48,991 bases of DNA from Halorubrum coriense DSM 10284 (GTDB lineage: Archaea; Halobacteriota; Halobacteria; Halobacteriales; Haloferacaceae): assembly GCF_000337035.1 (NCBI RefSeq), contig NZ_AOJL01000060.1:41466-90456 (forward strand). The letters are read 5' to 3'. Under the pieces are notes generated by a model. The model was not told the DNA's origin, made no database searches, and saw nothing but the letters and a program-made list of their open reading frames with translations. This document shows positions 1 to 44,254 of the stretch, in pieces (the first letter of the stretch is position 1; each line of letters begins with the position of its first letter). Both the position numbers and the translations under genes were made by a program.

Positions 1-76
1 CCCCCCCCCCCCCCCCCCCCCCCCGCCCCCCGCGGCCGCCGCTTCGCTCCGGCCGCTCGCACGCACGCGCCACCGC
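1..76 (+). repeat. Truncated right end of dispersed structured repeat (copy R1), preceded by poly-C
   Basis: Positions 32-76 match the tail of the repeat copies at 20.4, 26.2 and 44.1 kb. A hairpin with 7-bp arms (GCGGCCG 32-38, CGGCCGC 50-56) is followed by GCACGCGC (63-70) and CCACCGC, the same order as in the other copies. The left partner of GCACGCGC is missing because the sequence before it is a run of 24 C, one G and six C. The C run looks like an assembly or contig-end artefact rather than biology, but this cannot be settled here. Confidence 0.7.
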
Positions 77-20382: not shown

Positions 20383-20712
20383 CGACGAAGAACACTGCCA
20401 AAGCCCCAGCCGCGAGGCGGACACACGCTCGCTGTGCGCTTCAGTCGCTCACTGCGTTCGCTCCCTCCAGTGCTTGCGCCGCCTGTGCCCGCCTCGCGGC
20501 TGCCCCTTTGAGTCCACCCCCCACCGCACAGGAACCGCACCTCACGCCTCCCCAGCCTCGCGGTTCGCGCTCTTCGAGCGCTCACCGCGTCCAGCGAGGG
20601 ACCAGTGGTCCCTCTGGCAGCCGGCGCTACGCGCCGGCGACCTCGCGCGTGCGACTCGCGCCGCGTCGCGGCGCTCGTCGGCACGCGCCACCGCCCCATT
20701 TATGATTGATTA
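20383..20712 (+). repeat. Dispersed structured non-coding repeat, copy R2
   Basis: Full-length copy of a repeat also at 26.2 kb, 44.1 kb and (partial) 1-76. A 14-bp inverted repeat, CAGCCGCGAGGCGG (20407-20420) with its exact complement at 20489-20502, starts the element, followed by CCCCTTTGAGTCC. Two more hairpins are perfect: 20598-20612 (6 bp) and 20620-20638 (8 bp, loop TAC). The tail has an outer stem GCGCGTGC/GCACGCGC around an inner GCGCCGC-GTC-GCGGCGC hairpin. The open frames through it have repeat-driven composition and are not genes. It fills the 508-bp gap between the Get3 and priS genes; unlike R3 and R4 it lacks a clear TATA-like box 42 nt before AGCCCC. Confidence 0.85.
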
Positions 20713-26112: not shown

Positions 26113-26169
26113 GGCTCACTTATATATAGACGTCAACAGAGCAACGGCATACACCGACAGAGCCCCAGC
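26113..26169 (+). repeat. Tandem duplicate of the repeat's promoter and 5' end (unit U1)
   Basis: This 57-bp unit (TATA-like CTTATATATAG to AGCCCCAGCC) is followed directly by the equivalent unit of the full repeat copy R3 at 26170-26227. The two share GCTC-C-CTTATA near the start and ACACCGACA-AGCCCCAGCC at the end, at an offset of exactly 57 bp, while the middle has diverged. It looks like an ancient tandem duplication of the 5' end of the repeat. Confidence 0.7.
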
Positions 26170-26455
26170 CGCTCGCTTATAAATAATTGAATCCAGATTG
26201 ACGACGAACACCGACAAAGCCCCAGCCGCGAGGCGGGCGCACGCTCGCCGCGCTCCTCGCTCGCGTTGCTCGCTGCGGTGCTCGCGTCGCCTGCGCCCGC
26301 CTCGCGGCTGCCCCTTTGAGTCCCGCCCCGCACCGCTCCGCACAGCGCCTCGCGCCTCCCCAACCTCGTCGGCCTCCCTGCGGTCGGCCGACTCCCTCGC
26401 GCGTGCTGACTTCGCGGCCGCCGAGGGCGGCCGCTCGCAGGCACGCGCCACGACA
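26170..26455 (+). repeat. Dispersed structured non-coding repeat, copy R3
   Basis: The best-preserved copy. A TATA-like CTTATAAATA (26176-26185) stands 42 nt before AGCCCCAG (26218). A 19-bp perfect inverted repeat follows: left arm 26223-26241 and right arm 26292-26310 (CAGCCGCGAGGCGGGCGCA and its complement), loop 50 nt. Then come CCCCTTTGAGTCC, GCCTCCCC, and the tail: outer stem GCGCGTGC (26399-26406)/GCACGCGC (26441-26448) enclosing inner hairpin GCGGCCGCC-GAG-GGCGGCCGC (26414-26434). Long open frames cross it but are GC artefacts. With the neighbouring duplicate it fills the gap between the IMPase gene and the gene at 26521. Confidence 0.85.
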
Positions 26456-44030: not shown

Positions 44031-44254
44031 AACTGGATCTGCGGTGGCGCGTGCCTGCGAGGCCGCTTCGCGGCCGAGTAGCACGCGCGAGGGACGCGGT
44101 GAGCGACGCGGGCGACCGGAGGGAGCCCCGAGCGAACCGCGAGGCTGGGGAGGCGTGAGGCCGCGGTCCCGCGAGCGGAGCGAGCGTCCGTCGGCCCCAC
44201 GACTGGGGCTTCGGAGGTGTCGTCTGTCGGTTCACACGCGAGCGTTTATCAGCG
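44031..44254 (-). repeat. Dispersed structured non-coding repeat, copy R4 (inverted, shortened)
   Basis: On the minus strand this copy has CTGATAAACG 42 nt before AGCCCCAG, as in R3. The long first stem of R2 and R3 is replaced by a short hairpin GCCCCA-GTCG-TGGGGC (44194-44209 on the plus strand). The GCCTCCCCAGCCTCGCGG block and the tail are kept: outer stem GCGCGTGC (44047-44054)/GCACGCGC (44081-44088) around GGCCGC-TTC-GCGGCC (44061-44075). It lies between the 3' end of tmcA and the 3' end of the ferredoxin gene. Confidence 0.8.

Follow-up and report, generated by a model that had tools for sequence, protein, structure and literature searches.

Three of the repeats in the window, which is the whole 48,991-nucleotide stretch of Halorubrum coriense DNA that was analyzed, are copies of an intergenic element that is 220-500 bp long, with a median of about 250, and is made up of the hairpin domains H1, H2 and H3. 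It is well supported that the fold of this element is under selection, which probably keeps the conserved unpaired letters as well, rather than the sequence of the stems. H1 is the widely conserved core, and H3 is the narrowly distributed part. We consider that the repeats are probably non-autonomous dispersed elements, mobile or mobile-derived, with a folded strand under selection.

Repeat copies in the window

The three copies are designated R2, R3 and R4, and their domains, together with a remnant of a further copy, are located as follows. The model of the tail hairpin H3 (called R1) was built from the strand on which the first-pass annotation had described the repeats, and for this reason H3 of R3 is listed by the model on the plus strand.

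25-76, minus strand: remnant of copy 1, the 3' half of H3, preceded by an assembly gap (undetected by the H3 model)
20394-20519, minus strand: H1 of R2 (H1 model, 126 bits, E 2.8e-23)
20559-20589, minus strand: H2 of R2, CGCGGTTCGCGCTC-TTC-GAGCGCTCACCGCG (segment table and fold)
20593-20641, unstranded: two-hairpin module inserted in R2, AGCGAG-hairpin-CTGGCAGCCGG-hairpin-CGAC (also in other copies and species)
20633-20694, minus strand: H3 of R2, stems 20645-20688, just upstream of priS (H3 model, listed on plus, E 2.1e-8)
26150-26199, unstranded: short tandem unit upstream of R3, ACACCGACAGAGCCCCAGCCGCTCG then TTATAAATAATTG (from the sequence)
26210-26327, minus strand: H1 of R3, the core long hairpin with a 3x3 GGG/GGG loop and a GA-rich apical helix (H1 model)
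26367-26392, minus strand: H2 of R3, short variable hairpin GTCGGCC...GGCCGAC (segment table and fold)
26387-26454, minus strand: H3 of R3, the tail hairpin, stems 26399-26448 (H3 model, listed on plus, E 2.5e-12)
44041-44100, plus strand: H3 of R4, an inverted copy (H3 model, listed on minus, E 3.2e-10)
44131-44218, plus strand: degenerate H1 of R4 (H1 model, E 0.003)

All other matches to the H3 model in the window scored far below R2, R3 and R4. H1 of R3 matched the H1 model (the R2 model) with 105 bits and an E-value of 4.3e-19, and it was also found by a pattern match at 26217-26317, where 0.01 matches were expected. Folded singly as RNA, the copies in the window were 4-4.7 standard deviations below dinucleotide shuffles.

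The first-pass annotation had placed the tail hairpin in four copies, and in R2, R3 and R4 the pairing is present as it was written. In R3, the outer arm GCGCGTGC (26399-26406) pairs with GCACGCGC (26441-26448) around the inner hairpin GCGGCCGCC-GAG-GGCGGCCGC; the inner hairpins of R2 and R4 read GCGCCGC-GTC-GCGGCGC and, on the plus strand, GGCCGC-TTC-GCGGCC. The long stem reported at the other end of two copies was found in R2 and R3, and it is the opposite end of the same element as the tail hairpin. The description did not hold for copy 1 (1-76), where the 5' outer arm is missing although the inner hairpin and the tail's 3' half are present, and which was undetected when the window was scanned with the H3 model. 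In the contig directly upstream of copy 1 (L393), N and a poly-C run break up a similar element. Copy 1 is the distal half of such an element, severed by an assembly gap immediately ahead of the window. Positions 1-24 of the window and 300-324 of L393 are N followed by poly-C, apparently a scaffolding artifact inside a repeat copy.

Organization of the element

On the strand of the first description, H1 is a long hairpin flanked by AAAGCCCCAG and CTGCCCCTTTGAGTCCC, the linker after it ends in CACCTCACRCCTCCCCAGCCTCG and is followed by the short hairpin H2, TCCCTC separates H2 from the tail hairpin H3, and GGCACGCGCCACCGC comes after H3. The H1 core is a hairpin of roughly 126 nt with conserved flanks, GGGACUCAAAGGGGC...GGGGCUUU; its lower stem is almost free in sequence, and its apical helix is made of 2-bp steps separated by G-A mismatches. 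H3 includes a variable step of two or three letters (TG/CA, GAC/GTC or TCC/GGA) that is also paired. TATA-like words (TTTATAAATAGTCG-like) are frequent in both flanks of the element: about 50 of the 85 full copies of one Halorubrum genome (G120) have one that precedes AAAG at a fixed distance of 39/40 nt, and on the other flank they mostly stand 10-20 nt past H3. Short tandem units upstream of copies, including the one upstream of R3, have the same two ends as the full element, and some copies contain two-hairpin modules inserted at several places. Some IS200-type genes have modules resembling the inserted ones at a distance of about 1 kb, and at L203 2880-2970, L204 3110-3171 and L210 189-249 such modules seemingly fall within the C-terminal tail of a coding frame.

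The folding strand also carries invariant GGGG tracts at both feet of H1 (alignments A4 and A5), for which a G-quadruplex at high potassium is conceivable. In columns 38-40 of alignment A3, one copy often has the reverse complement of another copy's three-letter hairpin tip (TTC/GAA, GAT/ATC), which would fit inversion of the tips. GUGGGAUUGAAAG may be similar to the end of haloarchaeal CRISPR repeats, and GTGGGATTGAAAG (or ATGGGATTGAAAG), at the 5' end of H1 where the L340 and L344 matches start, may likewise resemble the 3' end of such repeats. A peptide gene following the SD-like GGAGG was considered and rejected, since the distance from GTG to TAA was spread over all three frames and no frame was kept.

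Covariation

Selection on structure, as the first-pass annotation had proposed, was borne out by double changes far above shuffled controls in two domains and across genera. In every one of 2000 permutations, for both H1 and H3, the arms of a copy paired better with each other than with arms exchanged among copies. An alignment of 104 distinct H3 copies from a single genome had 93.5% of its cells paired, compared with 83.3% after shuffling, and 11 of its 20 pairs were doubly changed. Doubly changed cells numbered 192 against 68 in the shuffles; these partly reflect the presence of two subfamilies, which have G-C or C-G at one pair, and independent events are therefore fewer than cells. In 33 Halorubrum copies of H1, 98.9% of positions were paired and 19 of 33 pairs were doubly changed. 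A second H1 set consisted of 41 copies from ten genomes of nine other genera, plus DL31, and here 97.8% of pairs were kept (73.6% when shuffled), with 296 double changes distributed over 27 of the 33 pairs, and 37 of the 41 lower stems were distinct. The covariation score was reached by none of 500 shuffles, and slid controls were all far below it. The paired changes had been read as compensation, but not all of them arose point by point, since some hairpins have been swapped as whole blocks, as at a single site in L130 and L132, which have H2 and H3 in common and differ in H1.

The folding strand

A single mutation in a stem produces either G-U or A-C, and the two are exchanged when the other strand is read. 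On the strand of the first description, A-C exceeded G-U by 26 to 3 in H1 and by 33 to 5 in H3, and by 11 to 2 and 12 to 0 in two further sets of copies, with much of the excess located in four columns, making the test weaker than the p values suggest; omitting two recurrent columns of H3 left 13 to 4. A-C intermediates on that strand are therefore G-U on the reverse strand. Across genera, H1 read on the reverse strand had 43 G-U and 8 A-C (p 7e-7). The reverse strand was also the more stable in 40 of 40 Halorubrum copies (z -5.6, compared with -4.4), and it folded better in 32 of 41 copies outside Halorubrum. Its internal loops contain GA steps, which are ordinary in RNA, and those of the other strand contain pyrimidine mismatches. 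By both wobble asymmetry and folding energy, then, the strand first assigned to R1-R3 has to be replaced by its reverse.

The G-U bias and the better fold of the reverse strand thus indicate that a single strand is selected, most likely as RNA. We infer RNA rather than observe it, because G-T pairs are tolerated in single-stranded DNA too, and part of the wobble asymmetry could come from a mutation process that is linked to transcription and favors one strand.

Distribution among haloarchaea

The genome from which the window comes has about 50 copies (51 BLAST matches, 49 model matches). The element was present in all 38 Halorubrum genomes, with between 2 and about 150 copies; one closed genome has 141, and a further one at least 150. 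Covariance searches of haloarchaeal genomes, the check suggested in the first-pass annotation, gave an answer that depended on the domain, with H3 nearly limited to Halorubrum and H1 in 63 of 77 genera. Among 146 genomes sampled from the order, all nine Halorubrum genomes matched the H3 model and one other did so weakly. The H1 model had matches at E 0.01 in 225 of 292 sampled haloarchaeal genomes, although class-wide E-values for H1 are rough and weak single matches may be false; ten genomes from nine other genera had 8-110 matches each. Confinement of the family to Halorubrum, while true for H3, is ruled out for H1 by these class-wide matches. In the strains DL31 and DL1, the H1 copy sits on a plasmid segment that is identical in both.

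Context and history of the Halorubrum copies

All 92 of the Halorubrum copies sampled were intergenic, and the four gene contexts were represented by 25, 24, 21 and 19 copies, with no preference for orientation, so that a fixed role relative to genes was rejected. A regularly spaced chromosome-organizing site was rejected as well, since the gaps between copies had a coefficient of variation of 1.04, as for random placement, with 79 copies on the plus and 61 on the minus strand. Copies were almost confined to chromosomes (56 of 56 and 66 of 67), and one plasmid copy was seen. No phage record matched, and one exact pattern had no match in viral contigs.

About 14 species have retained the copy at priS without a change of orientation, and a near base-exact empty site in L098 could reflect its loss. 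The site of R3 is occupied in either orientation, or is empty, in different species. In the 85 full G120 copies, the closest pair was 93% identical, and the nearest neighbors by H1 and by H2-H3 agreed in only 2. Neither target duplications above chance nor terminal repeats were seen in Halorubrum copies. The lack of a visible duplication and the 93% identity of the closest pair suggest that the Halorubrum copies are old, or that they evolve by exchange of segments.

Upstream of priS, L104, L105, L145, L148, L149, L175 and L176 share all or part of TTGGTCCCCGCTGACGCTTCGGCCCTCCAGACGAAGCGTCAC, which has a strong hairpin and is possibly another small RNA gene.

Mobility in another genus

At least a dozen of the H1 copies in G296 are arranged as inverted pairs with 28-30 nt between them, and the 27 copies read were 90-99% identical to their nearest neighbor. 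Ten pairs have similar terminal inverted repeats, of the GTACTGTTCAG and GTCGTGTTCAG types, and flanking words of 8-11 nt were shared in 5 of the 10 pairs, compared with 1% by chance. The H1 carrier in this genome is a mobile element with 8-bp target duplications. A search of plasmids for its end sequences returned nothing relevant. RNA and the DNA of a mobile element had been offered as two readings of the repeats; fold and mobility were both seen, and the two are not alternatives because a mobile element in the genus of G296 has this core too.

Interpretation

In the interpretation we favor, the repeats would be copies of a small non-coding dispersed element with the H1 hairpin as its core, in which one strand, the reverse of the one first described, folds. 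The folded molecule would be RNA rather than single-stranded DNA, with transcription presumed, and a host protein or a transposition factor may read the H1 apical helix and the G-tract loop. The Halorubrum copies may have moved in a manner similar to the G296 element; recent movement in Halorubrum is unsupported, given the 93% identity of the closest G120 pair and the undetected target duplications. Keeping a fold inside an element with terminal repeats suggests that the fold serves something besides end recognition, and the random orientation and number of copies argue against a single cis role. Against this reading, a terminal-repeat transposon itself needs no conserved internal fold, plasmid copies would be expected yet almost all copies are chromosomal, and the priS copy has long been kept in one orientation. 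We also entertain, tentatively, the possibility that in H1 haloarchaea have a new RNA domain, found across the class, that travels as a passenger of different small mobile elements and is recognized by its shape (the GA-stepped apical helix and the G-tract loop) and not by its stem sequence. If so, H1 would have been taken up because it acts on transcripts or on the transposition machinery.

The main rival, which we think rather unlikely, is that each copy is a structured RNA serving the host, alone or within transcripts (such as a cis-acting terminator or processing site for read-through transcripts, or a regulatory RNA encoded in many copies), and that spread by mobility is incidental. The wobble bias and fold of the reverse strand, the H1 core in 63 of 77 sampled genera, the long retention at priS and the confinement to chromosomes are all consistent with such a role, as are the TATA-like words, whose distance is fixed on one flank and 10-20 nt on the other, and the inverted pairs of G296, which give one sense copy to transcripts arriving from either side. 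However, orientation that is random with respect to genes and random chromosomal spacing fit no single cis role, and Halorubrum genomes differ in copy number, with as few as 2 and as many as about 150.

Descent from a palindrome-associated IS200/IS605 relic, of the PATE or REP type, moved as single-stranded DNA by a Y1 transposase, is improbable. Nested insertions in PATEs have been described from a haloarchaeon (PMC3119063), a strand-specific single-strand fold with nested hairpin modules would fit, and similar modules lie near some Y1 genes. Copy number, however, was unrelated to the number of Y1 genes (rho -0.11, p 0.52), and 7 of 38 Halorubrum genomes have no Y1 gene and a median of 87 copies. 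No significant match to the H3 model lay near 16 Y1 genes, and the similarities seen to Y1-carrying elements were confined to short modules. The 8-bp target duplications of G296 are not made by IS200/IS605 elements; in Halorubrum no duplication was detected.

We give still less credence to passive upkeep, in which palindromes are kept by template switching or gene conversion and the fold is not selected. Hairpin tips found as reverse complements, the block swapping of H1 between orthologous copies and the agreement of H1 and H2-H3 neighbors in only 2 of 85 copies are what such copying might leave, but copying of arms is blind to strand and predicts equal A-C and G-U, where 26:3, 33:5 and 43:8 were observed, and it leaves the conserved unpaired letters and the purine-rich internal loops unexplained. 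Chance pairing of low-complexity sequence, to which a GC content of about 0.77-0.8 might lend itself, can practically be dismissed, since 0 of 500 shuffles reached the covariation score and slid controls were far below it.

Relation to known families

That the repeats match no named RNA family, as first stated, was confirmed with Rfam 15, which gave no match at gathering thresholds in the window and none at E 0.1 in eight loci. The motif strings occurred in no relevant paper in the literature searched, mostly without subscription journals, and the family, nameless in Rfam and in those papers, seems to be undescribed. A survey of small RNAs in halite reported 22 conserved non-coding RNAs of Halobacteria without a function (PMC7002113).

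The PATEs and SMRs of Haloquadratum walsbyi are likewise non-coding haloarchaeal palindromes in tens to hundreds of copies, with small elements nested in the palindromes of others (PMC3119063). PATEs are linked to IS605-type ends (PMC3119063), whereas copy number here is independent of Y1; going by the descriptions, the present family is also set apart by its class-wide core and by terminal repeats with 8-bp duplications in one genus. In G296 the element is similar to MITEs in being short and non-coding, with inverted terminal repeats, an 8-bp duplication and many near-identical copies. It differs from them in its internal strand-specific fold, kept across genera while the stem sequence changes, and in that terminal inverted repeats and target duplications, the marks of MITEs, were found only in G296 and not in the Halorubrum copies. 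The bcr1 element of the Bacillus cereus group, in a different domain of life, is likewise a repeat element with secondary structure. REP/REPIN sequences with RAYT and CGTC repeats are also high-copy intergenic palindromes occurring in inverted pairs, but their units are 20-40 bp, compared with about 126 nt here, and RAYT is a Y1 enzyme, which is not needed here (PMC3733652). The element works like PATEs and MITEs, and membership among the PATEs fails in the Y1 tests made.

These results describe a structured element that reaches about 150 copies per genome and occurs in most sampled haloarchaeal genera, and its nearly free stem sequence combined with a kept fold gives a testable strand signature. 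The family matters for how haloarchaeal genomes are annotated and masked for repeats and for surveys of their small RNAs, and with it one can ask whether functional RNA is carried by the small mobile elements of archaea.
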